The notes under the pieces are model-generated. The model saw nothing but the letters and a program-made list of their open reading frames with translations. It was not told the DNA's origin and made no database searches. From Tribonema minus (lineage: Eukaryota; Sar; Xanthophyceae; Tribonematales; Tribonemataceae), in contig JAFCMP010000030.1 in assembly GCA_017506865.1 (NCBI GenBank), forward strand, positions 186,001 through 250,000: a DNA stretch of 64,000 nt, read 5' to 3'. This document shows, in pieces, positions 3,613 to 55,108 of the stretch (within the stretch, counting starts at the first letter, position 1; every line of letters starts with the position of its first letter). Both the position numbers and the translations under genes were made by a program.

Positions 3613-4478
3613 CAGGGTGAGCGCCGAAACCTCGAGGTTGCGTAACCTCAGGTTCCGCCCTTTAGTTCCGGCGGTTCCGGCGCCGACGGCGTCAGCAGGG
3701 GGTGCCGGAACTGCCAAAACTCAAACACACGTGAAACACTCATTTCTGGGCTTTTAGCACTACTTGCAGCCCTGTAGCTTTATCGGATGTCTTCTCTACA
3801 CACGTTGGCAGACGTATTACAGCTTCTTAAGGCTCTGGTGTCACCAATGGTGACCTGACCGGCTGGTGTCTAGGGTTAGGGCTGGTATTAGGGCCCAGGA
3901 AGGGGGGGGCGGGGGGGAGGGGGGGGTGGTGAAACGAGGTGCGATGACTACTGACAGCTATTTTATAACCAAACTGCCGTCATAGCAGTTTAAAGCGTAA
4001 TGTGTGCGAATACACTTCTGCGATGCACAGAACGACGTCAAAACACCCTAGTGGGGCCCCTTCGCCTCAAAATGATTTCCGCCGGTTCCGGCGAGTTCCG
4101 GCAGTTCCAGGCATTTTGCCAAACTGATTTCGGCAAAGGCCAAATAGGTTTTGGCGCGCACCCTGAACATGATTGGGAGTGTGGGTGGGTGTTCGTTTTA
4201 CTTACTCTTCGTCGCCTTGGCTGCATGTTCCCGCCAGTCTTCCAGACAGTGTAAGTGAGGAGCCGGTGTGCGGCGACGAGTACCTTACAATGGACCTATT
4301 CCTAGTCTTGACAAGGCCTAGGTCTTAGCCGCTGGGGCGTAAGACAGTCTCTAGGCTTGAAAAGCCTAGTCCCTAGGCTCGAAAAGCCTAGTCCCTAGGC
4401 TTGAAAACTTGAAGCCTACTTAGTCCCTAAGCTTGAAAAGCCTAGGTCTTAGCCGCTGGGGCGTAAAACAGGAGAATG
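3613..4478 (+). repeat. Left inverted arm
   Basis: Pairs with 8661-9524. It contains clustered GGTTCCGG words near 3650-3710 and 4080-4110, a TTAGGG-like tract and poly-G run near 3870-3930, and, at its inner end, several palindromic words of the type AAAAGCCTAGTCCCTAGGC between about 4312 and 4450. Confidence 0.88.
4312..4470 (+). repeat. Short palindromic tandem words at inner end of arm
   Basis: CCTAGGTCTTAGCCGCTGGG occurs at both ends of this stretch, and between them AAAAGCCTAGTCCCTAGGC-type words repeat about every 22 bases. The same structure is mirrored at about 8665-8825 in the right arm. Confidence 0.8.
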
Positions 4479-8660: not shown

Positions 8661-9524
8661 CATTCTCCTGTTTTACGCCCCAGCGGCTAAGACCTAGGCT
8701 TTTCAAGCTTAGGGACTAAGTAGGCTTCAAGTTTTCAAGCCTAGGGACTAGGCTTTTCGAGCCTAGGGACTAGGCTTTTCAAGCCTAGAGACTGTCTTAC
8801 GCCCCAGCGGCTAAGACCTAGGCCTCGTCAAGACTAGGAATAGGTCCATTGTAAGGTACTCGTCGCCGCACACCGGCTCCTCACTTACACTGTCTGGAAG
8901 ACTGGCGGGAACATGCAGCCAAGGCGACGAAGAGTAAGTAAAAGGAACACCCACCCACCACTCCCAATCATGTTCAGGGTGCGCGCGAAACCTATTTGGC
9001 CTTTGCCGAAACCAGTTCGGCAACATGTCTGGAACTGCCGGAACTCGCCGGAACCGGCGGAACTCATTTTGAGGCGAAGGGGCCCCACTAGGGTGTATTG
9101 TCGTCGTTGTATGCATGGCAGAAGTGTATTTGCAAACATTACGCTTCAAACTGCTATGACGGCAGTTTGGTCATTGCTGTCAGTAGTCATCGCACCTCGT
9201 TTCACCCCCCCCCTTACCCCCCGCCCCCCCCTCCCCCTGGGCCCTAATTCTAGCCCTAACCCTAGGGCACCAGCAGGTCACCAGTTGTGACACCAGAGCC
9301 TTGAGAAGCAGTAAAACTTCTGCCACCATGTGGATAAGACATCCGATAATGCTACAGGGCTGCAAGTAGTGCTAAAAGCCCAGAAATGAGTGTTTTACAT
9401 GTATTTGAGTTCCGGCAGTTCCGGCACCCCCTGCTGACGCCTTCGGCGCCGGAACCGCCGGAACTAAAGGGCGGAACCTGAGGTTACGCAACCTCGCTCG
9501 AGGGTGGTTTCGGCGCTCACCCTG
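8661..9524 (-). repeat. Right inverted arm
   Basis: Reverse complement of 3613-4478, with the same landmarks in mirrored order: CCTAGGCTTTT words at the inner end, a C-rich run near 9207-9240, and GGTTCCGG-type words near the outer end. Differences are scattered substitutions and small indels, and the homopolymer runs differ in length. Confidence 0.88.
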
Positions 9525-9736: not shown

Positions 9737-9809
9737 CGCTTCCGGCAGGGATCGAACCTGCGACCTAGCGATTAACAGTCGCTCGCTCTGCCAACGGAGC
9801 TCCGGAAGC
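9737..9809 (-). tRNA. tRNA-Asn (GTT)
   Basis: Read on the minus strand, the 73-base sequence folds as a standard cloverleaf. The acceptor stem is GCTTCCG/CGGAAGC with a G discriminator. The D arm contains an A-box-like segment, the anticodon arm is AGCGA-CTGTTAA-TCGCT with anticodon GTT, and the T arm is GCAGG-TTCGATC-CCTGC. No intron is present and CCA is not encoded, as expected for a nuclear eukaryotic gene. It marks one end of a segment duplicated in inverted orientation at 16.4-17.25 kb, where the tRNA copy is degenerate. Confidence 0.95.
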
Positions 9810-10985
9810 TGATGAATGCTTCGCAATCAGTCAAAATCTGAGCCTCATTTGCCGGAGCCATCACCTCGCTCTGAGAAAGTCTTGAACTCATGGCGTGAAT
9901 GAGCAATGCATCGAAGATGATGCTGAATAATTGTCACCAGGATGCTGAATAATTGCCACCAGTCATGGTAGCTTGTCCGGACATGAGCTCGACGCAACGC
10001 AAACAGAGCGTACCACCCTGCGCAGCCTGCTGCCGCTGGAGCCTGCAGCAGCGACCTGCAAAGCAGACGCCCCCTATGAGATCCTGCAGCAGAATGGCAG
10101 CAAAACGGACACTCAACAGAGTGGCTGCAGGAGAGATTGGGGCACGGCTTTGGCGGCCCTGAGGCCATGGCACTGCAGCGGCAGTGGGCCACGCCGCAAG
10201 GCCAGCTCTTGGGCCTCATTGCTGTCAGTGACGACGACCTGTCCGGTGTCCGCCAATTTGGGGCAGAATGGGCTGCTTCAGAATCTGTAGAGGCCAGCGG
10301 TGCTGACATGCGGGCATCCGCCTGGTGGACCTGGCAGACTGTCAGTGAGTGTCGGTGTTCCAGCAGCCACCGACAGCACAGTATCGCAGCCGCATAGCAG
10401 CCCGCCTCAACTCTTGCCGCCACCGCAGCGCGACGAAGGCTGCCCGGCATCCGCGCGACGCACCCATCTGTGCCTCTGTGACTGTGCAAGTTGGGCACAC
10501 CAGCGACGCCGCTGCAGCGGACCAGGGCATTTTACCGTTCTATGGCGGAGCAGCTGCTGCCCGTCTTGTCTAACTTAAAGGTGAGGGCAAGCCAACAATT
10601 GGCGTGACACTGTGCCAGATTGTGTGCACACAAACGGTCAATTTGTCAGACAATGAATGTCATTGCTTTTTGCTTGCATGCTTCGAAGTTTCGTCAATGA
10701 TTGCGGTTTGGAAAGCGCTGCTGTCCCGCGGCTGCATGGACGCACTGTGGCACACTAAGTCACTTTTTGCTGGACGGTCCAGGTGCACTATGGAGTGGCA
10801 CACTGTGCGCGCGCACGGGTCAGCGACACACTGGCGCACGCGGCGCGCCGATGTGGCGTGCCGTCACAATAGTCCTCTGCGGCAGCCCCTGCCAGTGGCC
10901 TCAGGCTTCCAGCCAGGCTGCCTGGCAGGCGCCGACTCCGAGATCTCAGGCTCCATCGACGATGGTCAGCGCGAGCTGGACCTGC
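9810..10985 (+). repeat. Unidentified coding module, copy A
   Basis: One of at least five copies of a repeat that reads as decayed protein-coding sequence. Recurring peptide landmarks across copies are QQNGSKTD, RQWATPQGQ, VRQFGAEW, IRLVDLAD and TAQQR, followed after a likely intron by TDDDSQRELDLQPE-type sequence. The family is not recognised. Copy A is almost identical, in inverted orientation, to copy C and shares its tRNA-Asn flank. It faces copy B (minus strand) around 11.0 kb. Confidence 0.75.
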
Positions 10986-16094: not shown

Positions 16095-17040
16095 GCAGCG
16101 GCAAGGAGGCAACCAGGCCCTCCATGTCGAGGCGCGGCTCAGGCTGCAGGTCCAGCTTGCGTTTACTGTCGTCGTCGGTGGGCTCGGGGTCTGGTTGAAT
16201 GGCCAGGGGGCAGAGAACTAATGTGCGGCACGCCGCATCCGCGCGCCGCATGCGATGCGCCCCTTTGTCGCTGACCGCACAAGCAAAAAGTGTGCATCAC
16301 GCAGCCGCGGGGCAGCAGCGCTTTCCAAACCGCAATTATTGACAAACACATGCAAGGAAAAAGCAATGCATGCGCACAATCTGGCACACGCCAATTGTTG
16401 GCTTGCCCTCACCTTAGAAAAGAGGGCAGCAGCTGCTCCGCCATAGAACGGTAAAATGCCCTGGTCCGCTGCAGCGGCGTCGCTGGTGTGCCCAACTTGC
16501 ACAGTCACAGAGGCACAAATGGGTGCGTCGCGCGGATGCCGGGCAGCCTGCGTCGCGCTGCGGTGGCGGCAAGAGTTGAGGCGGGCTGCTATGCGGCTGC
16601 GCTGCTGTGCTGTCGGTGGCTGCTGGAACACCGACACTCACTGACAGTCTGTCAGGTCCACCAGGCGGATGCCCCGCATGTCAGCACCGCTGGCCTCTAC
16701 AGATTCTGAAGCAGCCCATTGTGCCCCAAACTGGCGGACACCGGACAGGTCGTCGTCACTGACAGCAATGAGGCCCAGGAGCTGGCCTTGCGGCGTGGCC
16801 CACTGCCGCTGCAGTGCCATGGCCTCAGGGCCGCCAAAGCCCGTGCCCAATCTCTCCTGCAGCCACTCTGTTGAGTGTCCGTTTTGCTGCCATTCTGCTG
16901 CAGGATCTCATAGGGGGCGTCTGCTTTGCAGGTCGCTGCTGCAGGCTCCAGCGGCAGCAGGCTGCGCAGGGTGGTACGCTCTGTTTGCGTTGCGTCGAGC
17001 TCATGTCCGGACAAGCTACCATGACTGGTGGCAATTATTC
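16095..17040 (-). repeat. Unidentified coding module, copy C
   Basis: Nearly identical to copy A in inverted orientation, with the same order of landmarks. On the minus strand it continues past TDDDSKRKLDLQPE into DMEGLVASLPLPRKTQ, which gives the longest downstream extension of the module's coding sequence seen in the window. Confidence 0.78.
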
Positions 17041-17176
17041 AGCATCCTGGTGACAATTATTCAGCATCATCTTCGATGCATTGCTCATTCACGCCATGAG
17101 TTCAAGACTTTCTCGAGCGAGGTGATGGCTCCGGCAAATCAGGCTCAGATTTTGACTGATTGTGAAGCATTCATCA

Positions 17177-17245
17177 GCTTCCGGAGCTCCGTTGGCAGAG
17201 CGAGCGATTATTAATCGCTAGGTCGCAGGTTCAATGCTGGAAGCG
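17177..17245 (+). pseudogene. Degenerate tRNA-Asn
   Basis: Copy of the tRNA-Asn at 9737-9809 on the opposite strand. The 5' acceptor and D arm match, but the anticodon loop reads TTATTAA in place of CTGTTAA and the T arm is shortened, so it cannot fold normally. Sequence belonging to a different repeat begins immediately after it. Confidence 0.85.
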
Positions 17246-25569: not shown

Positions 25570-27399
25570 TCGTCAGTAGTGAGTGAACCAGACAAATGCC
25601 CATTCCAGTGCTTCGCCAGGAGGTAGCGAGAAGCCTGCAGGCAATGCCTCCGGCTGCTGACGCATGTCGCTAGCGTCGCAACACTTCTTGGTGAGGCGCA
25701 TTGGTATGCGCGTAGGCCGTCCGTTGATGTCCACCAGAAGACACCCGGCCTGCACACGCTCCCCGCCGCTCTCCGCCGGGCACGCTAATATTATGCTATA
25801 GGGCCCATGCCATCTATCCAAGAGCTATTTGCTGAAGACTGTGCGCTTTGCCTTGTTGAACCCTCTTGCAACTGGTGCAGCCGTGTCAGCAGGTGCCGTA
25901 TGCGTGCGCGGCACATGGTAGTACCACACCCGTTCACCAGCGCTGAACGACAGACGTAGTCCAAATGCCTCCACCGGCGCTGCGCAATCTCGGTGTTCTC
26001 GCGGAGCACCTTGGCCCGTCGCAGCGCATGGCGTTGGTTGGCAATGGTGTTGACTGAGCGCTGACACTCAAGGATGTCGAACACTAGCTGTGACACTGGA
26101 GGATGTGTGCCAGGCTTGACCAAGGGCTGTTGAAGCTTGCCCAGCATGAGGTGTAGTGCGATGCGGGCCTCGCGACCAGTAGCCCGAAGGAAGCTTGCGC
26201 CGGTGGCACGGTCATAGGCTGTGTTGTGGGCAAAACTGAATCAGATGTGAGGCAGCCAGTCAGCCCAATTGTTCTTGGCACTCAACTAACATGGCGAGCA
26301 TCTGGGCTAGCTCCTGCATGAAACGCTCGCACTTGCCATTGCACTCAGGGTGGTATGCGGTAGTGGAAAGGTTATTGATGCCCATCTGCTTGTAGGCAGC
26401 TTGAGAAAGCTCTGCCATGAAGACACTGCTGCAGTCGCTGCAGCATGAGGAGCTTAGAAGAGGGGCCGTGACGAGTGCTGTGATGGTTAATTAAAACTTC
26501 AGCTGTGCCAGCAGCACTGTGGTCCCCAGGCTTGATGGGATAGCACCACACCCGGCCCGAAAACAGGCACATCACCACCAGTATGTACATGAAGCCGCCA
26601 GCGCTGAGGGCAGCATGTTGCAAATTGCCCCCCGGTTTAGCATCTGCGCGCTGCTCCCGCTGCCAGTCACCAGGCGTCATGACGCCCAGTTGAGGATGCT
26701 CAACGAAGCACTCCCACGCACCCGCCTCAACGTATGCCGTCTCAGCAAGTGCGGATATCTGCTCTTCTCCCCCTCCCTGAGCGCTGCTACCACCTCCGTG
26801 CAGATGTTGATGTACTCTGCTGTTGCAAGTGCCTCCAGCCGCTCCCACTCGTGGGCCTGCAGGCAGTACGCCTCGAGCAGCCGCTCGCGCTCGCTCTCCT
26901 CTGCATCTTGTGGTGTAGCAGGGACAGGATGGCGGCTTGGCCCATCGGCGTTGCCGTGTGATGCGCCCTTCTTGTAGCGGATGGTGATGTTGAAGGCGCT
27001 CCAGCGCGCGCCGTGCGCGGTGCGCTCGCAAAGGCTGTCAATGTACTGACGAGCGCGGTGGTCGGTGTAGAGGACAAACGGCGTCCCCCACAGGATGTGC
27101 TTGAACTTCTTGATGCCGAAGACGATGGCGCCGGCTTCAAGGTCGGTAGTAGACCAGTTGCGCTCATTGGATAGAGTCGCGCGAGAGATGTGAAGGCGAT
27201 TGGTTGCTCCGCGCCGTCGTTGTTGGCCTGCGAGAGCACTGCGCCAAAGCCCTCCTTGCATGCGTCTGTGGCAAGGACAAAGGGGCGCTCGCCGGTGCTA
27301 GCGCGCGCGTAGTCGGGGTACTGCATGCAAGTGTGAAGCGCCAGGGCTTCGTTGACCTCGCGGATGGCTTGTTGTTGAGCACTGCCAACTACGAAGTCC

Positions 27400-28200
27400 A
27401 CCCCCTTGGCCATCAGATGGGTGAGCGGTGCTACCAGCTTGGCCATGTTCTGAATGAATTGCCGGTAGTAGTTTGCGAGGCCAAGCCACGCACGCAGCTG
27501 AGAGATGTTGCAGGGGATGGGCATCTCAAGTAGGGCTTGAACTTTGGATGGATCTGGCCTAATGCCATCAACGCCCACAATGTGCCCCAGGAACTTGATG
27601 TGCTTACACCCTATGTGCAGCTTGCTGGGGGCTAGCTTCATCCCATGATGCTCTAGGCGCTGGAAAAGGGCTTTGAGGTCGTTGAGGTGCTGAGCCGTGG
27701 GTGTGGAGTGCACAATGACGTCGTCAATGTAGGGCTGGACGCGCTCTAGGCCGGAAAGCACCATCTGCATGAGGCGTGTAAGGTGCCCTGGCGCCCCCGC
27801 CGCCCCCTGTGGGCACCGTAACCACTCGTACAAGCCGAACGACGTAACCATGGCAGTGAGGGGGATGCTTTCTGCATCTATGGCACTAGTGAAGTACCCA
27901 CTGGTGATGTCCATGGTGGTGAAGACTTTTGAGCCCCCCAAACTATTGAGAAGGTCCTCTATGTTGGAATGGGGATCTGGGGGATCTTGGTCTGGGCATT
28001 CAGCTTCTTGTAGTTCACGGTGATCGGGCGGTGCCATCAGGCTTGAGCACTGCCACCACTGGAGATGCCCACTCGAAGTCGGAAGGGCGGATGATGCCAG
28101 CAGCCAGCAGCTTGTCGATTTCGACCTTGACTAGAGCCGTCATTGCAGGAGAGTACCTATACGGACGGTCATGGTGCGGTGTGCTGCCCTCTTTGAGATC
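27400..28200 (-). pseudogene. Reverse transcriptase region of the Ty3/gypsy fossil
   Basis: Landmarks on the minus strand are HHDRPYRYSP at the start, EWASPVVAVLKPDG, then FTTMDITSGYF, YIDDVIVHS and KHIKFLGHIVG, ending in the SQLRAWLGLANYYRQFI connection typical of Ty3/gypsy polymerases. The region is broken, and it grades into RNase H towards lower coordinates. Confidence 0.9.
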
Positions 28201-29679
28201 AAAGCGGAAGGGCATTGTGGTACAATGCCCTATGTCCCACTTGTCTTTTGAGAACATTTTGCTGCTATACTGAGCGAGCAGCAGGCACAAACACGCCACC
28301 TGATCAACGTCCCATCCCTGCAGGTCAACGCGCACTGCCAGCATGTAGTCTGGCAAATGCTTGCGTGCCTCAGCCAAGGCAGCATTAAGCTTAGGGTCTT
28401 CGTGAACGTGTGACCCCAAACTTAAGCCGCCGCTGTCGGGAATGTGTACTTTTGCGCTCCCACTAGGCTCAAAGTCAACGGCCTTCTCGCACGGCCGCTG
28501 CGCCCTTTGCGATAGTCGCGTTGGCGCTGCTGCCGGCGTCACCCTCCGGCTCCGCCTCGCAGCGCCAAATGTCAGTGAGCAGGTCCAGCACAAATATGTA
28601 CTCCTCTCTCCCAGCGCGCGCCGGCGCCGCCGCAGCACCTGCCGCGTGCGCGCTGCGCCGCTGTATCGCTTGTCGCTGATGCTGCCGCTGCAGCATTCCT
28701 CCCACAAGCCCTTGCCGCATGCGCGGCGCCATCAGGCGCCGCTGCTGCTGCAGAGCGCTGCTGCACAGCTGCCGCCTGGGCGGCGCCCGCCCGCTCCACT
28801 GCGGTGGCCATACGCACTGCGACTGGTTCGGCGCCAGCATGCGCCGCTGCTGTCGCAGTGCTCCGTTGCATTGCCACTGCGTGCGCGGCGCTGGTCGGCG
28901 CCGTGGCAGAAACAGCGCCCGTAGACGCCGCTGCCGCCGCAGCACTCCATGGTACCGCTGACGCGTGCGCGGCGCCCGACGGCGCCGCCACACTAGCAGC
29001 ACGCGCCGCGACTGGCGCAGCGCCCAAGTGCGCTGCTGCCGTCGCAGCGTGCCGCTGTGCGTCAGCCGCTCGGGTGGCGCTCGCCGGCGTCACCAAAGAA
29101 GCTGCGCGCGCTGCAGCTTGCGCGGCGCCCGCAGACGCCGCTGCTGCTGCAGCACTCCGTGGTGCCGCTGGTGCGTGCACGACGGCGCGTGCCGGCACCA
29201 CCGCCACACCAGCAGCGCGCGCCGCGACTGGCGCGGCGCCCGAGGACACCGCTGCCACCGCGGTGCTTCGTCGCGCGGCTGTTGCCTGCGGGACCTCCTT
29301 ATGTGCCGCCCCTGAGGCAGCTTGGGCTGCGGCGTGCATGGTGCCAGCAGGCGAAGTTGCCGCCGCAGCGTCCCGGCGCGCGGCCGCTGGTTGCGCAGCA
29401 GCAACAGTGTCGCCAAGCACGGCACCCGAAGATGCCGCTGTCGTAGCAGAGCTCCGTAGCGCGGCCGCTGACTGCGCGGCGAGCTGCGGTGCCGCGGCAG
29501 CAGCCCGCGGCGCAGTGCGCGCGACGCCTGTATGTGCTGCCGCCGCAGCAGCGCTCGCCGGCGCCGTCGCAGCAGCGCTCGCCGGCGCTGTCGCAGCGCT
29601 CGCCGGCGCTGTCGCAGCAGCGCTCGCTGGCGCCGCCGCAGCTGCAACCGCCTCTGCTTGAGGGGCGCGCGCTCCGCGC

Positions 29680-34499: not shown

Positions 34500-35340
34500 C
34501 GGCGCGCCCGCGCCGCGTGCGCGCAGCCGCCCAGTGCACCGCGGGCGCCGCGGCAATGGCCGCGCTCAGCGGCGCGCCCGTCGCGTTGGTGACGAGCGGC
34601 ACCGCGGGCGCGCGGCGCCGCCGGCGCGCGCGGCGCTGCCGCTGCCACCGCGGCGCCGACCGCCTCCGCCACCGCCGCCATGAGCGGCGAGTCGAAGGCG
34701 TGGCTGACGATGAGGCGGACGCTCGCGACGCCCGGCAGGCGCGTGAGCACGGCGCGCACCGCCGCCTCCGTCCCCGATATCGTCACCGACAGCGGCGAGT
34801 TGACGGCGGCGATCGCGACATTTGCCGCCGCCGTGGATGCGGCAGCGTCGCCGGTGGCGGCGGCGCGCGTGGCATCTATCGCGCGCGCCGCGTCCGCCTC
34901 TGCGCAGTGCGCGGCGTACATGCAGCCGTCGGCGCGCGGCGCCGCAGCCATCTCGCGCGTGCGCCGCACGGCGAAGATGAGCGCGTCGCGCAGCGGCAGC
35001 ACGCCCGGGGCGGCGGCGGCGGCGACCTCGCCGAGCGAATGTCCGAGGACGGCGGCGGGCGTCACGCCGTGCGCGCGCCACAGCGCCACGAGCGCCGCCG
35101 CGAGCGTGCACAGCGCCGGCTGCGCGTAGCGCGTGTCGTCGAGCAGCGGCGCGCGCGCGGCGTCGAAGAGCAGCGCCGCGAGCGCACACGGCAGCGCGGG
35201 CGCGCCGGCGATGTTGCGCGCGAGCGCCGCGGCGCACTCGTCGAGCGCCGCTTGGAACACTGGCTCCGCGGCGTACAGCGCCGAGCCCATGCCGCTGTAC
35301 TGGGAGCCCTGCCCCGTGAAGAGGAACGCGATCTTCGGCG
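34500..35340 (-). other. PKS acyltransferase domain with His-to-Asp change
   Basis: Starts FLFTGQGSQYSGMGSALY; the nucleophile motif is GHSLGEVAAA; the later motif reads VSHAFDSPLM where active enzymes have HAFH. The last residue of that motif normally forms the catalytic dyad with the serine. The codon is GAC in place of a His codon (CAC/CAT). Confidence 0.85.
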
Positions 35341-36018
35341 GCGCCGCGCGCTCCCGCGGCGCCTCCGCTGGCGCTTCCGCCGCCTCCGCTGCTGCCGCGT
35401 CGTCGCCGTCAGCGTTGTCGTCGAGAGACAGAATTACGTGCGCGTTGGCGCCGCCGAAGCCAAACGAGCTCACGGCGACGAGGTTGAGCTCCGCATCGCC
35501 GCCGCCGCTGCCGCCGCGCAGCGGCGTCGGCGCCTTCGGGAAGATGACGGGGAAGCCGTCGAGGTCGAGGCGCGGGTTGAGCGCTGACAGGTGCAGGTTT
35601 GGCAGCGCGGCGCTGTGCCGCAGCACCAGAACCGCCTTAATAAGCCCCGCCATCCCCGCGGCGACTCCCTCCAGGTGGCCGATGTTAGTCTTCACGGAGC
35701 CCACTTCCAGCGGCGCGCCGCCGCCTTCGCCGCCGCCGCTATTGCCGCCGCCGCCGCCGCCGTAGTACACCAAGCGCAGTGCCCCGAGCTCTATCGGGTC
35801 GCCGAGCGCAGTGCCCGTGCCGTGGAATTCGATGAAGGCAACGCGCACCGGCGGCGCGCGCACGCGCGCGAGCGCGCGCCGCATCGCCTCCTGCTGCGCG
35901 CCGCCGCTCGGCGCCGTGAGGCTCACGCTGCGGCTGTGCCCCGTCGCAGAGCCGCGGATGAGGGCGAGGATGGGGTGGCGCTGCGCGCGCGCGTCGGCGG
36001 CGCGCATGAGCGCCAGCG

Positions 36019-36049
<31 letters not shown>

Positions 36050-36059
36050 CGCGGCGGCA

Positions 36060-36214
36060 TCCCAGCGGCGGCGGCGGCGCGGCGGCGGCGGCGGCGGCGT
36101 GTGGAAGCGGCAGCAGTCAGCAGGAGGCGATGAGGCGCCGCGCGGCGGCGGCGGTGCAGCGGCGGCGCCAGCGTGTGAGAAGCAGCAGCAGCCAGCAGGA
36201 GGCACTGCGACGCC
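36060..36214 (-). repeat. Two ~75 bp tandem copies upstream of KS C-terminal exon
   Basis: On the sense strand the sequence GCCTCCTGCTGGCTGCTGCT, followed by CACACGC and a CCG run, is repeated about 75 bases later as GCCTCCTGCTGACTGCTGCC with the same continuation. The second copy leads directly into the ANGYVRGEG exon. Confidence 0.75.
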
Positions 36215-36703
36215 GCGAAGAGGCGGTGCGCTCAGCCAAGTGCGAACAATGAGCGCTCGACTGCGACTTAAAGTTAAGGTTAGGCACGCAGCTGTTGGCC
36301 GGCGCTGCGGCCCCGGTGCGTGCGGAAGCGCAGCGCGCGTGAAAGGAGAACGAGCCGCCTCTCTGTAGCGCGCATACTCCGCTGGAAGGCAGTGCTCTCA
36401 CAGCGGCCATCGGGCACAAGCATTGCACACAATGCGCGCTGATATGAGCTGTTCCTACAGCAGGTGCCTTAAAGTTTCGTATGTATACACAGTGCTAGAT
36501 GTACTTCATTCCATGTATTCACCACAACTCACCACGCCTTGCAGCGGCCGTCGGGAGCGAGCATGCGCATCGCGCAGAACGCCTCGAACGCGCCGGGCGC
36601 CGTGAGCACGTTTACGGCATCGGCGAGCGCAGTTCACAGTCGCCGCTCTGCAGGCCGCGCACCGCCGCGTGCAGCGCCAGGAGCGAGGAAGAGCACGCTG
36701 TGT

Positions 36704-37097
36704 CTATGGTCTCGCTCGGGCCGCGCAGGCCCAGCACGTAGGATAGTCTGGCGTGGAGAGAGGGACAGGGGGGGGGGCAGGGGGGGCAAGGGAGGTTGAG
36801 AGGGGCAGAGCTTTGTGTGTTACTGTTTGTTTTGAGAATTTGTAACTTAAAGCTGTGTAGCATCAAAGACGCCGCGTAGGTCCAAGACGAAGGATAGTCT
36901 GGCGTCACGACGGGAGAAGGGGGGGGGGGGAGGTTGAGGGGGGCAGGGGAAGGGGAGTGTGTTTCATTGTTTGTGGCACGCGGCTGTGTAGCATCAAAGA
37001 CGCAGAGCAGGCCCAGCGCTGGAGGGGGAGGGGGGCAGGCGAGAAGGGGGGGGAGCTGAGCATCACGAGGGAGACGTGCAGCAGCTGTGTAGCTTGC
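36704..37097 (-). repeat. Three ~110-180 bp tandem copies of a KS exon border
   Basis: Plus-strand units begin at about 36,704, 36,857 and 36,988. Each carries the border sequence (ATCAAAGACGC, then a GCAGGCCCAGC-like word, then GGATAGTCTGGCG in the first two) followed by a G-rich run. Only the first unit encodes the functional YVLGLRG; the other two are diverged copies of the acceptor and exon start. Confidence 0.82.
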
Positions 37098-38858: not shown

Positions 38859-39054
38859 ATGCTGTTCAGCCCTCAGGCGACCCCTGTTAAGCAAACTTTA
38901 ACCTCAGCAGAGACTGTCGCCCCGCATGTTCAGCCCTCATGCGACCCTCACAACCTAACCCATAACCCTAGCAGAGACCGCCGCCCCGCGTTGTTCAGCG
39001 CTCAGGTGACGCTTATAACCTAATCCCAAACCCTGGCAGTGACCGCCGCCCCGC
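38859..39054 (-). repeat. Three ~65 bp tandem units in PKS intron
   Basis: Units of 67, 64 and 65 bases share GTTCAGC.CTCA at the left, a CCTAACC-like middle and CCGCCCCGC at the right end. CCTCATCCTCAGCG and ACCAATCCTCA words flank the array on both sides (about 38.81 and 39.12 kb), so a larger duplication encloses it. Confidence 0.8.
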
Positions 39055-39889
39055 AACTCACCATCACCGGCGGCGCAACTCACTGCTGCCGGCGACTTTA
39101 CAACACATGTACCCCTCATCCTCAGCGTTCGAACCACCAATCCTCACACAAATCAAAGAGTAAACTTTGCTCAGCGATTGCATGACCGCCGCAATCTAAC
39201 CCTAGCCCTAGCAGCTCACCGTTGCCATCGGCGAAGCACGACTCCTCCACGTCCCAGCGCGACGGCGGAATCTCCGTCACCGCGTCCGTCCCTGCCGCGA
39301 GCATCTCTCCGGGCAGTCCGCGCCGCCCGGAAACTGGCACGCCATGCCGACGATGGCAATGTCCCCCCCCCCCTGCGCGCCGCTGCTGCTGCTGCTGCCC
39401 GGCACCTCCGCCTCCCCCGCGCCGCCGCCGCCCCCAAGTACTACCCCTCCAGGAACTCGGCGATCGCCGCGACGGTCGGGTGGTCCAAGAGCACTGTCTG
39501 CGGCACGTCGATGCCATGCGCGTCGCTGAGCGTGTCCTGCAGCGTTGTGTCCGGCTGGTCCGCCTACAGGGAGTCGAAGCCCCCGGTCCATGAGCGGCGC
39601 GTCTGCCGTCAGCGCCGCCGCGTCGCCGCCGCCGCCGTCGCCCCCCAAAATCTCGCGCGCCACGCAAAGCAGCGTGCGCATGAGCCACGCCAGCCGCACC
39701 GCGCGGCTCAGGCACAGCGCAAGCGCCTCCGCCGCCTGCACCGCTGCCGGCGCTGGCGCCGGCGCTGCCGCCGCTTCGCTGCTCCACGCCGCCTCCGCTT
39801 CGCTGCCACCACTGGTGACCGCTGCCGCTTCCGCCGCTGCCGCTGCCTCTGCCGCTGGTGCTGAAATCTGGGCGGCATCGTACGCAAAA

Positions 39890-50218: not shown

Positions 50219-53200
50219 ATGGGTGCGTGTTTGGGCGGGGAGGCAGCCCCTCAGGGGGAGGTGGTGACTAAAGAGAGTCAGGCCATAGATGCCAAGGCCG
50301 CGGCGGACTTCCGAAAAGAGCAGGTAAGCCGTGGGATGCGTTGAGGCATGCTGTTGTTGTTACATTTGAGGTTTGAAACTTAAAGGCAAAGGTAAGTAGC
50401 TTTGTCACTTGAGGATTCAAGCGTGAAGGGCGTGGATCAGAGCAGGAGTTGCAGTGTGCGCTTGGCAAGCCGTGTCGCTGGGTAATGCAGCAATGATCAC
50501 ACGCGTCATTGCACGAGGACATGCAGCTAGTGTATGACGACTCACTGACGAGTATTGATACATGAGGGGGGGGGGGGGGGGGGCATTCAATGCAGTACAG
50601 GTGTACTTACTGCCAGATCATGTGTTCTCACCGTATTATGTGTGTGGACACTCCCTTAGGGTTAACATTAGGTTTTGGTTGGTTTCAAGGGTTCAGGGTT
50701 AGCATGAGGGCTAGGGTCAGGCTACCGACGATTCAACTCCCTCAAAGAGACATTTGCAGCATTGTGCACACCGTGGTCAGTGATGACACGTGTTTGACCT
50801 TTATAGGCCCACACCATTCCACACGACCCTCAGATTGAGGCTCGTGACATGGAACATACCAAGTTCAAGTTGCAGGAAAGCACCGGCGCACCTTTGCCCT
50901 ATGGATCTCAAGATGGCGTTGTCTGCCGCATGTACTTGTGAAGTGTATGCCTGCAAAGGAACATATACAAGGGGGTGTTTGGTTATCACTGCTACTGCAG
51001 ACTTGAAGTAGCACAGCAATCTAACCTGCTTTGTTGGGGCCCTACCATTCAGTTTGAGGGGGCAGACCATTGACAACAGCCATCCTAATTTTTACAGGCA
51101 CTCGCAGAATCACAACGAGACAACCTGTTTGCACTGCTCTCCTATCCGCGCTACTCGGAGCTCAGGAGAAGGTGAAGTTGCTGCTGCTGGGAGCCGGCGA
51201 GAGCGGCAAGTCAACCATCTTCAAGCAGATGAAGATACTGCATGGGGTGATAACGGAGGAGGATCGGAGGCTGATGACACCCGTTGTGCACCAGAATACA
51301 CTGTTGGCCATGAAGACCCTGGTTGGGCAGGTTAGCGCAAACATAGACCATACATACATGCCCTGTGCTTACGCCTGACCCCTGTTGTGCACCGGAATAC
51401 GCTGCTGGCCATGAAGACCCTGGTCGGGCAGGTTAGCTCACGCATGTATTTGCCTTCAATACATGCCCTGTGCTTACTCATGTGCACCAGAGCACACTGC
51501 TGGCCATTGCTCGGCCAGGTTAGCTCACGCATAGCTCACGCATGGATCATACACACATGCCTTGTTCTTCACAAGAGCGTGATGGCGCTGCTCGACGTAA
51601 TTTTGCCCCGCAAGTCAGTGCCCAGCAGATTTCAAGTATAGTTAGTGCCGCAAGTTCAGTATGGCGGTATGCAGGCATGCACTTGAAGTACACAAGACTC
51701 AAAGAAAAACAGGATACTCCGTCTGCCATGCATAGTACTGAACTGACACAAACAATAACTGATAGTGCTCATCTAAAATTGGAGGTTTCATGCACGGCAA
51801 AATAGAATATATGCCGGTAGTGAGGAAATGCTGGCCACGTACTTCGAGGTATGGCGTGAAGGCGATTTGTGGAACATCGCAGTGCACATGGAAAGCGCGA
51901 CAAATTGTGAAGTGAACGCTCTAGCTCTAGTTTCAAGTAAGCGCACATACCTTAGAAGAGATTGAAGCTGCATTGTGACATGCAGTGGTGCATGTCACGC
52001 CTGCGTGTAATGAGTGACGGACATGGTCGGGTACATGCCACAACAATGTCGGCGCTTCAGCAACTCCCGCACCTGTATGTATGTATACATGCAGAGAACC
52101 TGCGTGCATACATTTTGAACATTGTGCCTACTGACCGTCTTTTCCGCTAAACTGTACAATCTGTGAATACTCACACTATACATAACCCATAGACCATACC
52201 ATATACATGCCCCCATGCAGGTGGAGGCGCGCAGCCTGCAGGGGCAAGTCGCTGCCGCCGCCGCGTTTGACACCGTCAAGACCTGTGATGACACCGCCGT
52301 CATCGATACAGAACTGGGCAAGGCGCTAAAGGCAGTCTGGCAGGATCCAGTGGTGCAGCGCGTGTGGGAGAAGCAGGCGGAGTTCCAGATAGAGGAGTCC
52401 GTCAAGTACTTCTTTGATGATATGGACCGGATCTCTGGGCCGGGCTACACTGCCACTCCGCAGGTGCGTCCCCGAGTTGAACCTCAACTCAAAGTTTATG
52501 TTGGGTTAGGGTGTGAGGCGTGTACCGCGTATTGACACTCGGAAGTGGTGGCTGAGACGTGCACAATGACTAGCAGAAGAATTGTTCTTGCAGACGACGA
52601 GTTTGAGTCTGAGTCAGTTTTTTTTTGCATTATAGAAGAGGCTTATTCACAGCACTGCTATGCGGCACATGTGTTTCTGTCTTGAAGGTCCGCACAGCTT
52701 AGAATCACAGCGAGGTGGGCTGAGCGTTGAGGTGAGGCAGTGTAGTCAACTGCACACTCGATTATCACTGCATCAAGGGATCAACCCACTCTCAGTACCC
52801 TATAATTACCTTGTGGACATGTCAATGTTGACTTGCCAGATTTGGCATAACCAGCTTATTTTGCTGAAGGGAAGCAGGTGCGGGCATGCCACTGGTCTGT
52901 AGCTGGTGAGCCTGTGGGCAACTTCAACTTTGAAGTTGCCTTGCCTCTGAGCTGTGACACTCCCAAGTTGCACATCCCCGCCTCACCAGTGCCGAAGCCA
53001 GCTGGCCAGTGTCAGTGTCAGCTGGAAAATTGATCGCACACGTACTCCTCTCCATTCGCGACATCAGCGACTGTGTCACCCTATCCACAACATTAGCGAC
53101 TGTTTCACCCAACCACACGCCATGCCTCCTTTTCTGTGTGTCAGGATATGGTGTACACGCGCGTGCGCACAACGGGCATCGTGACCGACCGCTATGTCAT

Positions 53201-55108
53201 TGACGGCACCACGTTTGAGATGTACGATGTGGGTGGCCAGCGTAACGAGCGCAAGAAGTGGATCCACTGCTTCGATGCGGTCACCGCGGTACTGTTTGTG
53301 GCCTCGCTCTCCGAGTACGACCAGAAGCTGTTTGGTGAGTGGCGCACAGAGTACGGTAGTTTATGTTGAGGTTAGGGTCTACATCATGGCGAGCTCTGCG
53401 TGTTAGGGCTAGAGACAGTCGCTGCTGTGCTGTTCATCATTGCTCTTCAAGTACTATCATGAGCTGTCTGGTGGGTGGCGCTTACCGCTTAGGTTATGGC
53501 GGTGAAGGTTTGGGTGAGGTTGAGGATTAGGATAAGGGCAATGGCGGGGGGGTTAGGGTCCAGGTTGGCCACTGTGCTGTTTGCCGGTTAGGTTATGGTG
53601 AAGGTTTGGGTGAGACTTGGGGTGAGAATGCGGGTTAGGGCAGCGGAGTGAGGCTTGGGGTTGGCCACAGCGTTGTTTGTCATTTCGCTGATTGAGTATG
53701 ACTAGCTGTCCGGTGAGTGGCGCAGAGCATAAGACAAGAAGCTGAGGTTGGGGTCAGCGTGGCACCTACTGCTATTGATCAGAGGGTTTTTGGGTAACAG
53801 TAGAGACTGGCACAGGTGAAGGTTGGCTGTGACGTTGCTGTTTGCGGCCTCACCCTTCAGGACTAACCAGCAGCGGGTGAGTGGCGTTCAGGGTAGGGTT
53901 GGGTTAAGGATGAGGACTGTGGATAGGGCTAGGTTAGGTTTGAAACTTAGGGTTGTGGCTGTGCTGTTTTTGGCCGCGCTGCGCGCGATAAAACCCTGTG
54001 GGGTGAGCAGTGCTCAGCATCACAGCAAGTTGCGACCAGGGGCAGGGGTTATTTGCGCACAGAGTCATTGCGCTGCTGCTTGCGGCTCGCCGTTTGAGTA
54101 TGACTCAAATGCTGTTTGCAGGATAGCGTTTGGCGTTCAAATTAGGGTGAGAGTTTATTTGACTAGGGTTCAGGGTGGATTATAGGAGCAGAGTCGAGTT
54201 GCTCTGCCAGGTCTTTGTCAGAGTATAACCAGAAGCTCTTTTGGCGAGTAGCGCATTGTATTCAGATTAGGGGTACAATCAGGAGTAGGGTTAGGGTTAG
54301 GGCTGGGTGAGGTCAGCATCATGATCAAGGTGGGGTCACTTTGTGAGCGACCTCAGTAACGTAGACAAGACTTCAATTTGTGAATGTACGCGGCTTGTGC
54401 GTACATTACATGTATTGCAGGTGGAGTGCTCCAGAACTGTCAGACACTCGAAGTCAGGGGCTGCGCTTTGAACTCCAAGTTCAATTCTGCTGCATTGAAA
54501 CACCCCCCATTCGACAGCAGCACTCCATTTGCCAAACCCGCCGCTGTATGTACTTAGATCATACCCGTCCTTGCTGTACAAGCGGTCACGCAGTCGGACT
54601 TCTCTGCTGCCTTTCAGGGGCTGCTCCCCACACCAGCACGTTGCTTGCACACCTACTGCGCCGCCCACTTTTCCATGCCTATTGTGTCAGTGACACATTC
54701 TCACGTTGTTGCCCTGCTTGTGTCTCTCGCGCCCCCCTCTCAGAGGACGCCTCCACCAACCGCGTCACGGAGGCCCTCTCCCTCTTTGCCGACACGTGCA
54801 ACAACAAGTACTTCCACAACTCCTCTATCATCCTCTTCCTCAACAAGCGCGACCTCTTCGAGGCCAAGGTCCTCAAGGTCTCCATCAAGTCCATCCCCAG
54901 CTTCATAGACTTCGGTGGGCCGGAGCAGAGTGCGGAGGCGGGCATCAAGTACTTCATGGACAAGTTCCTGGCGCAAAAAGGGGCGTTCAGGAAGGACATC
55001 TACGTGCACGTCGTGTGCGCGACGGACACCGAGAACGTCAACAGGGTCTTCTCCGCGTGCACGGACATTATCCTCAAGGACAGCCTGCGCGGGAGCGGCT
55101 TTGCCTGA
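50219..55108 (+). CDS. Heterotrimeric G-protein alpha subunit, five exons
   Basis: Exons 50219-50323, 51166-51330, 52221-52463, 53145-53334 and 54744-55108 join with consistent phases and GT-AG borders to give 355 residues, the usual size. It begins MGACLGG, with Gly2 for myristoylation and Cys4 for palmitoylation, so it should sit at the inner membrane face. Motifs: P-loop LLGAGESGKSTIFKQ, helical-domain FDDMDRISGPGYTATPQD, switch I RVRTTGIVTD with the catalytic Arg, switch II YDVGGQRNERKKW with the catalytic Gln, NKRD and CATDT. It should bind GTP, couple a receptor to effectors and hydrolyse GTP. The C-terminus, LRGSGFA, lacks the Cys four residues from the end found in Gi-type subunits. 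No damage is visible. Introns 2 and 4 contain tandem copies of the exon ends. No beta or gamma subunit lies in the window. Confidence 0.97.
50562..50583 (+). repeat. Poly-G run in G-alpha intron 1
   Basis: About 20 uninterrupted G. Comparable G runs recur near 3.9, 36.77, 36.92, 48.9, 55.13 and 56.89 kb, all on the plus strand regardless of gene direction. Confidence 0.9.
51277..51570 (+). repeat. Three tandem copies of the G-alpha exon 2 end and donor
   Basis: The real exon end reads GTTGTGCACCAGAATACACT and finishes GGTTGGGCAG|GTTAGC. At about 51,378 it recurs as GTTGTGCACCGGAATACGCT with GGTCGGGCAG|GTTAGC, and at about 51,482 as GTGCACCAGAGCACACTGCT with CGGCCAG|GTTAGC. CATGCCCTGTGCTTAC-type intron sequence follows the first two copies. 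The unit is about 103 bases. Confidence 0.92.
53270..54260 (+). repeat. Decayed tandem copies of the G-alpha exon 4 end filling intron 4
   Basis: The true exon end is GCGGTACTGTTTGTGGCCTC, then GAGTACGACCAGAAGCTGTT, then the donor GGTGAGTGGCGCA. Recognisable copies follow at about 53,412-53,490, 53,560, 53,655-53,725, 53,822-53,890, 53,945-53,990, 54,085-54,125 and 54,190-54,255. Examples include GAGTATGACTAGCTGTCCGG with GTGAGTGGCGCAGAG, and GAGTATAACCAGAAGCTCTT with GGCGAGTAGCGCA. Between copies lie degenerate GGTTAGGG words, ending in a clean tract at 54,286-54,303. Confidence 0.88.
54286..54303 (+). repeat. TTAGGG tract in G-alpha intron 4
   Basis: Three consecutive TAGGGT units, the cleanest of many TTAGGG-like words in this intron. 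Confidence 0.85.

Follow-up and report, generated by a model that had tools for sequence, protein, structure and literature searches.

Decayed copies of exon edges suggest intron growth by junction duplication in Tribonema minus

The G-alpha gene and the array in its fourth intron

The stretch of DNA analysed here (the window) comprises 64,000 nucleotides of Tribonema minus contig JAFCMP010000030.1, positions 186,001 to 250,000 of the forward strand, and carries a five-exon gene for a G-protein alpha subunit (G-alpha), the fourth intron of which, intron 4, is the element under study. The edges of exons 4 and 5 were placed from the reading frame and the GT/AG dinucleotides, and the features of the gene are collected in Table 1. 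A query spanning positions 53279–53348 joined the final 56 nt of exon 4 to 14 nt of donor sequence; aligned to the remainder of intron 4, it gave six non-overlapping matches to the exon end, with scores of 38–58. All six exceed every one of 300 dinucleotide shuffles of the intron, in which the best match averaged 23.4 and was never above 36, and control comparisons stayed at noise level, with best scores of 18–26 for six other segments of exons 3, 4 and 5, for the reverse complement, and for intron 3 and downstream DNA. The decayed repeats of the exon 4–intron 4 boundary that an initial annotation of the sequence had described are therefore real.

Five of the six copies start within 8 nt of one point in exon 4, consecutive matches begin 106–245 nt apart, and identity across the aligned parts ranges from 73 to 88%. 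We read the copies as a single head-to-tail array, the unit of which would consist of the exon end, the donor and the start of the intron, and which contains eight units in the same orientation when the original and one fragment are counted. The eight copies of the initial annotation correspond to these eight units, of which six are copies individually above chance and one (u2) is a remnant; compared with the 53270–54303 of that annotation, the extent is slightly wider, from 53279 to about 54345. The units had also been called progressively diverged, a description that fails because scores along the array (58, 50, 50, 38, 48 and 46) show no steady fall. Tandem Repeats Finder reported no array in intron 4, the units being too diverged. 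Alternative splicing from the copied donors would probably be unproductive, because an in-frame TGA is reached 11 codons past the real donor at 53335.

Two paralogues of the gene on another contig, L002 and L003, are 84% and 79% identical to the focal gene over the exon, and have an intron at the identical position, of 427 and 411 bp, respectively, compared with 1409 bp in the focal gene. Neither of these two introns contains a direct repeat of at least 20 nt or an exon-end copy at a score of at least 32. No homology above that of shuffled sequences was found between the paralogous intron 4 sequences (scores of 31 against a shuffled maximum of 38, 29 against 40, and 24 against 30), and these introns, too diverged to align, consequently show position and length only. 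The simplest reading is that an old intron of approximately 400 bp was lengthened by about 1 kb in the focal copy of the gene. Repeated duplication of the exon–intron junction as the source of this growth, proposed at the outset, is supported by the six copies together with the shorter paralogue introns, and the further link that had been drawn to intron gain is rejected, as L002 and L003 share the intron position.

The same gene holds a second example. In intron 2, a comparison of 51275–51445 with 51376–51532 (75% identity, 124 bits) reveals two more copies of an exon end with its donor, in steps of about 100 bp, less decayed than the array in intron 4. Among other paralogues, L005 has three decayed exon-end copies downstream of one exon and two exon starts with one upstream copy each, and decayed exon-end copies are also present in L004.

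Table 1 Features of the G-alpha gene, its intron copies and a further edge copy in the window
Feature	Position	Strand	Description and basis
G-alpha exon 1	50220..50323	+	start ATG at 50220, ends ..KEQ, donor GTAAGC; sequence and translation, boundary inferred
G-alpha exon 2 (EKVKLLLLGAGESGKST..)	51166..51330	+	GTTAGC next; PF00503 at C30:237163-237348, exact edges inferred
G-alpha intron 2	51331..52220	+	holds two more copies of exon 2 end and donor
Intron 2 copy 1, exon 2 end and donor	51376..51476	+	offset 101; right limit inferred
Intron 2 copy 2, exon 2 end and donor	51481..51569	+	self-comparison
G-alpha exon 3	52221..52463	+	sequence; PF00503 at C30:238269-238463, edges inferred
G-alpha exon 4	53145..53334	+	Pfam PF00503, E 8.1e-27; copied exon part is the last 56 nt (53279-53334)
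G-alpha intron 4	53335..54743	+	1409 bp, GT..AG; splicing inferred
Intron 4 unit u1, decayed exon 4 end	53422..53566	+	GTGGGT donor (53471); score 58 at 53418-53481
Intron 4 unit u2, fragment	53567..53660	+	GTGCTGTTTGCC word only; alone not above chance
Intron 4 unit u3, decayed exon 4 end	53661..53824	+	GTGAGT donor (53713); score 50 at 53663-53724
Intron 4 unit u4, decayed exon 4 end	53825..53950	+	GTGAGT donor (53877); score 50 at 53833-53886
Intron 4 unit u5, decayed exon 4 end	53951..54067	+	GTGAGC donor (54003); score 38 at 53958-54016
Intron 4 unit u6, decayed exon 4 end	54068..54194	+	donor lost; score 48 at 54064-54118
Intron 4 unit u7, decayed exon 4 end	54195..54345	+	GC donor (54244); score 46 at 54218-54255
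G-alpha exon 5, including stop	54744..55108	+	Pfam PF00503, E 9.1e-31
Polyketide synthase region, upstream copy of apparent exon start and acceptor (..CGCCAG ACTATCCTACGTGCTGG..)	36720..37015	-	exon edge by eye

Copies of exon edges in several gene families

The genome (158 Mb in 554 contigs) was searched for similar copies at exons located by Pfam matches. The end of each exon (60 nt plus 15) was aligned to its downstream flank and the start of each exon to its upstream flank, over up to 1.5 kb, or 900 bp on each side for the kinesin stretches, with a score of at least 40 taken as a copy; flanks of other genes reach 40 in 3 of 2000 cases for ends and 10 of 1950 for starts. Of 96 chaperonin and G-alpha matches, 94 were entered (the weak G-alpha matches C446 and C334 were left out) and 80 examined. 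With the flank stopped at the next exon, ends were copied downstream in 24 of 80 and starts upstream in 19 of 78. Removal of four fossil matches and of low-complexity edges gave 19 of 73 and 14 of 71, in a count in which, as in those for LHC and kinesin, the flank ran past the next exon.

Among the best 12 of 92 LHC matches, no exon end and two exon starts were copied; some of these 12 are near-identical paralogues, not independent of one another, and were kept in the totals without entering the wrong-side test below. The 12 kinesin exons, out of 132 matches listed, have both ends inside the profile and were picked by hand before their sequence was seen, other interior matches being passed over; they yielded 4 copied ends and 3 copied starts. 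Pooled over the chaperonin, G-alpha, LHC and kinesin families, 23 of 97 exon ends and 19 of 95 exon starts are copied. Edge copying is general in this genome and not peculiar to G-alpha, with intron 4 as an extreme case. The serial junction array, which had been judged unusual, is not so here, with edge copies at between a fifth and a quarter of the sampled borders.

In one chaperonin gene an exon start is followed back upstream by four copies in series that all stop at different points, which fits repeated separate events. In another chaperonin gene the same exon is copied twice upstream and once downstream, and 4 of 56 chaperonin domain matches are themselves half-exon fossil copies. In the window, an intron of the polyketide synthase region has at its 3′ end an upstream copy of an apparent exon start with its acceptor (36871–37015 against 36720–36884, 66% identity, 50.9 bits). 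The kinesin matches C246:701357-701488 and C511:562024-562092 cover once more the profile positions at which the exon match before them ends (268–311 and 73–95, respectively), and are putative exon-end copies that may be visible even at the protein level.

The number of introns affected would also be expected of an introner-type mobile element carrying splice sites, an explanation to which we attach almost no weight. Every copied sequence matches its own adjacent exon, and a genome DNA search with the focal region, in which the best candidates were scored and very common words skipped, returned the region itself and four other places, all of them matching the exon part. The same element was not encountered in many unrelated introns in that search, which was not exhaustive for repeats.

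Side, shape and spacing of the copies

Copies of exon ends and exon starts were sought on the opposite side of the exon, and copies of exon middles on both sides, for chaperonin and G-alpha in sets of matches of at least 150 nt and 190 nt. Exon ends were found upstream in none of 56 chaperonin and G-alpha and none of 12 kinesin exons (0 of 68), and exon starts were found downstream in none of 58 and none of 12 (0 of 70), the closest score being 38. Exon middles were copied downstream in 2 of 41 chaperonin and G-alpha and 0 of 12 kinesin exons, and upstream in 1 of 40 and 0 of 12, with a nearest miss of 39 (upstream). The pooled counts on the correct and wrong sides, the latter without LHC, differ with Fisher probabilities of 1.6e-6 for ends and 2.2e-5 for starts. 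The copies are half-exons on the side predicted by tandem duplication across the junction. No whole-exon duplicate, with both exon edges in the copy, was met among the chaperonin and G-alpha matches of at least 150 nt and the 12 kinesin exons, and the majority of the printed copies continue across the splice site.

In the 34 cases scoring at least 44, original and copy are spaced 93–710 bp apart (median 168) with a median identity of 0.90, and in 28 of these pairs diverged or inserted sequence separates the recognisable parts. Some pairs are 93–97% identical, and several of these differ mostly by silent changes, as false duplications would if two haplotypes or noisy reads had been placed in tandem during assembly. 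Such an artefact is very improbable, given that the focal copies are only 73–88% identical with many changes at codon positions 1 and 2, that at some loci the copies number at least three and end differently, and that there were no wrong-side copies among the exons tested.

Decay of the copies and of their splice sites

Changes were analysed by codon position in 19 end copies and 15 start copies, after the four fossil matches had been dropped. Mismatches at positions 1, 2 and 3 number 43, 31 and 59 in end copies and 22, 14 and 45 in start copies; silent and replacement changes number 47 and 65 in end copies and 36 and 31 in start copies, with one stop in each group. A copy free to change beside a constrained exon is expected to have equal numbers of mismatches at positions 1 and 2, with position 3 reaching at most roughly double that number. 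The end copies fit free decay well, and the start copies lean towards constraint. In the focal intron 4 the corresponding mismatches are 17, 14 and 26 out of 80, 80 and 78 positions, near the pattern of a copy in free decay next to an exon in which mostly silent sites change.

The splice site could be placed in 28 of the 34 cases (16 ends and 12 starts), and was not placed exactly in 6. Divergence in the intron flank is 21.9%, compared with 9.6% in the exon part, for the 16 ends, and 21.5% compared with 8.1% for the 12 starts, an approximately twofold difference, as would be expected if just one of the two exon sequences compared could vary freely. The splice dinucleotide is kept in 14 of 16 copied donors and 11 of 12 copied acceptors, each list including one row in which the alignment fell on another copy or failed to reach the site. 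This survival is roughly what a neutral divergence of about 10% would give, and the copies decay, to a first approximation, as neutral DNA for which no function is needed. Gene conversion or selection keeping the copies alike, suspected from sharp drops in identity at splice sites, was judged unnecessary because substitution in the flank is about twice that in the exon part, and the gap counts considered below leave some doubt on this point. At the exon at C279:806008 (minus strand), both the real and the copied donor read GCGAGT, a shared GC donor.

These data also bear on the proposal that the copies are functional, either as alternative splice sites or as poison segments that lower G-alpha output, and are maintained by selection. 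The mostly intact decoy sites and the lean towards silent changes in start-side copies are compatible with it, as is the position of the G-alpha decoys u3 and u7 at a multiple of three from the real donor. Against it stand a retention close to that given by neutral divergence of about 10%, the common mismatches at codon positions 1 and 2, the stop met after 11 codons of read-through, and the failure to detect the array in the paralogues L002 and L003; we therefore regard a maintained function as quite improbable.

A model of intron growth from exon edges

We propose that the intron 4 array is the fossil of repeated short tandem duplications that started in exon 4 and ended in intron 4, and that introns ratchet longer by the same process across the genome, a reading to which we assign a probability of roughly 0.8. 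A short stretch across a splice junction would be duplicated in tandem, and one more half-exon, with its own donor, would come to lie downstream of the first. The outermost, upstream donor would stay joined to the complete exon, and the protein would be unchanged if the spliceosome kept using this outermost site; the extra unit would leave with the intron and then decay. Exon starts would behave as the mirror image, with the last acceptor remaining in use. Such duplications would cost little and hence accumulate, and introns would ratchet longer. Exon definition requires two edges, and half-exons may be passed over because one of these is missing, leaving the outermost sites as those presumably spliced. 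Short tandem duplications are usually attributed to slippage or to staggered breaks repaired by fill-in, and either could have provided the duplication step here.

Several results weigh against this proposal or limit its reach. Cross-gene controls are high in families rich in paralogues (24 and 9 of 132 for LHC, and 6 and 3 of 132 for kinesin), and approximately 11% of non-coding tiles in chaperonin and G-alpha loci reach a score of 40 (57 of 529 in one count), so that part of the edge signal reflects general repetitiveness. Strict extension produces a head-to-tail arrangement with little in between in only 6 of the 34 pairs, contiguity being inferred for the others, and in one start case or more (C279:43284) most of the copied sequence is intron. 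On the start side silent changes outnumber replacement changes, and the 2 stops among 181 changed codons are a smaller number than might arise under entirely free decay. The excess of gap openings in the intron flank over the exon part (58 and 4 for ends, 49 and 7 for starts) is larger than the simple model would lead one to expect, and unrelated 40-mers under the same alignment diverge by 31.7% with 5.4 gaps per pair, leaving the flanks not far from noise. Detection is biased to ungapped exon parts, and real and decoy splice sites were assigned from frame and homology alone.

A related question is whether duplication is blind, with selection acting on its products, or is directed to exon edges by an active process such as breaks linked to transcription or splicing and healed by fill-in. 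Copies scoring at least 80 are found for 11 of 73 exon ends and 10 of 71 exon starts, compared with approximately 6% of tiles 20–200 bp from exons and 1–2% of tiles 1–3 kb away in these loci, as a junction-directed process would predict. The exon parts, however, are conserved on one side and hence recognisable for longer, the near-exon tiles are themselves raised (the tiles overlap and are not independent), and telomere-like words show no link to the copies (P = 0.31). A directed process is accordingly rated as unlikely. Only slightly less doubtful is a stronger form of the ratchet model, in which junctions would be hot spots of tandem duplication, introns would grow mainly from their own exon edges, and the spliceosome would ignore near-identical half-exon decoys 100–350 bp away.

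Relation to known systems and significance

Internal gene duplication and whole-exon tandem duplication have reportedly been described by Gao and Lynch (2009) and Letunic (2002). The events considered here resemble these in being duplications inside genes, and differ in copying half-exons, with wrong-side counts of 0 of 68 and 0 of 70. The closest precedent is in the potato RdRp gene, where one tandem duplication across an intron–exon boundary gave rise to an additional intron, the splicing of which is backed by RNA (Ma, Lan and Niu 2016, PMC4974935); the same paper mentions an intronic duplication of 83 bp. The cases in T. minus share with the potato event a boundary-crossing tandem duplication and splice signals inherited from the parent intron. 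In contrast to that single event, existing introns here would grow serially, on donor and acceptor sides and in several gene families, as read from DNA alone.

Tandem genomic duplication is, according to one review, the only mechanism of intron gain shown in vivo (PMC3443670). In that model (Rogers 1989; Hellsten 2011), as presented in two later sources, an exonic AGGT is needed and a new intron is made (PMC4974935, PMC3443670). The copies in T. minus are likewise short tandem duplicates of adjacent genic sequence that supply splice sites, with strict head-to-tail contiguity confined to the 6 pairs noted above. Unlike in that model, the duplicated block would already hold a splice site and the outcome would be a longer intron; at intron 4 no new position absent from paralogues was found, as it is occupied in L002 and L003. 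Introners, mobile families affecting introns genome-wide (PMC9860276), resemble the present copies in that genome-wide effect, and differ in that each copy here derives from the neighbouring exon.

Junction-crossing duplication is thus already known from potato, and what appears to be new is its serial, two-sided and genome-wide use. Among the open-licence literature matches listed, none was found to describe introns growing through junction duplication that is serial, two-sided and genome-wide, which does not prove that such a description is absent. Intron sequence soon becomes unreadable, and growth without transposons is hard to document; a conserved exon edge provides a template by which old duplications can be recognised, and edge copies make the history of intron growth legible in ordinary genes. 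They also constitute a natural experiment on splice-site choice, with many genes offering at least two similar donors or acceptors of which only one adjoins a complete exon. Half-exon copies also score as extra domain matches, which affects gene finding and searches for domains.

Telomere-like words in introns

TTAGGG-like words, which the initial annotation reported between the copies, are present in the array, and are enriched in the introns of other sampled genes too (46 and 19 on the two strands, compared with 5.7 and 4.8 expected). TTAGGG is the telomere repeat here: five of six contigs inspected at both ends begin with it and none of the six ends with it. Genome-wide, (TTAGGG)4 has 3071 forward and 3991 reverse matches including telomeres, with none for a reversed control, and the interior of contig C1 contains at least about 20 separate sites with four perfect TTAGGG repeats. 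The idea that a strand bias of the words might signal an RNA function was set aside, both strands being enriched and the words clustered by gene. Insertion of telomere repeat within the same events as the edge copies was likewise considered and the link dropped, with words in 26% of 35 flanks beside copies and 24% of 113 flanks elsewhere (P = 0.31). According to a review, it was the repair of double-strand breaks that produced most short interstitial telomeric repeats (PMC6410037).

Other features of the window and genome

At 26787–28130 on the minus strand, a retrotransposon is represented by its reverse transcriptase and RNase H domains (Pfam RVT_1, E 1.3e-21), and the adjoining frame 28015–28731 on the same strand is, by eye, more of the same element. 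A type I polyketide synthase region occupies approximately 30.5–40.4 kb on the minus strand, with Ketoacyl-synt_C and Acyl_transf_1 domains in 34683–36397, in a stretch that reaches 77% GC and has many internal GC-rich repeats. Within it, a 65-bp array of three copies at 38863–39055 contains telomere-like words (CCTAACCCATAACCCTA) and is flanked by similar 40-mers approximately 300 bp apart (38806 and 39108); array and flanking 40-mers are possibly another edge copy.

Two inverted copy pairs with 22-bp arrays are found at 4301–4471 and 8668–8838, and at 9845–10531 and 16645–17214. A tRNA-Asn gene (9737–9809, minus strand) and a weak tRNA match (17177–17245, plus strand) lie near the larger pair, and the pairs have the appearance of a repeated element, part of it related to tRNA. 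The words ACTTGAAGT and ACTTCAAGT occur 5 and 4 times in the window, compared with 0.5 and 0.6 expected, and words resembling them recur, by eye, in other loci examined.

Elsewhere in the genome, paired chlorophyll-binding domain matches lie a few hundred bases apart at C79:1260591-1261277 and C1:1236836-1237498, and the best matches of these paired domains among sequences of solved structures are the long LHCI chains of 9vfj. For the chlorophyll-binding proteins, multi-domain LHCI chains are the first matches, followed by ACPI/CAC/FCPI-type chains, which we take to be those of red-lineage algae with chlorophyll a/c.

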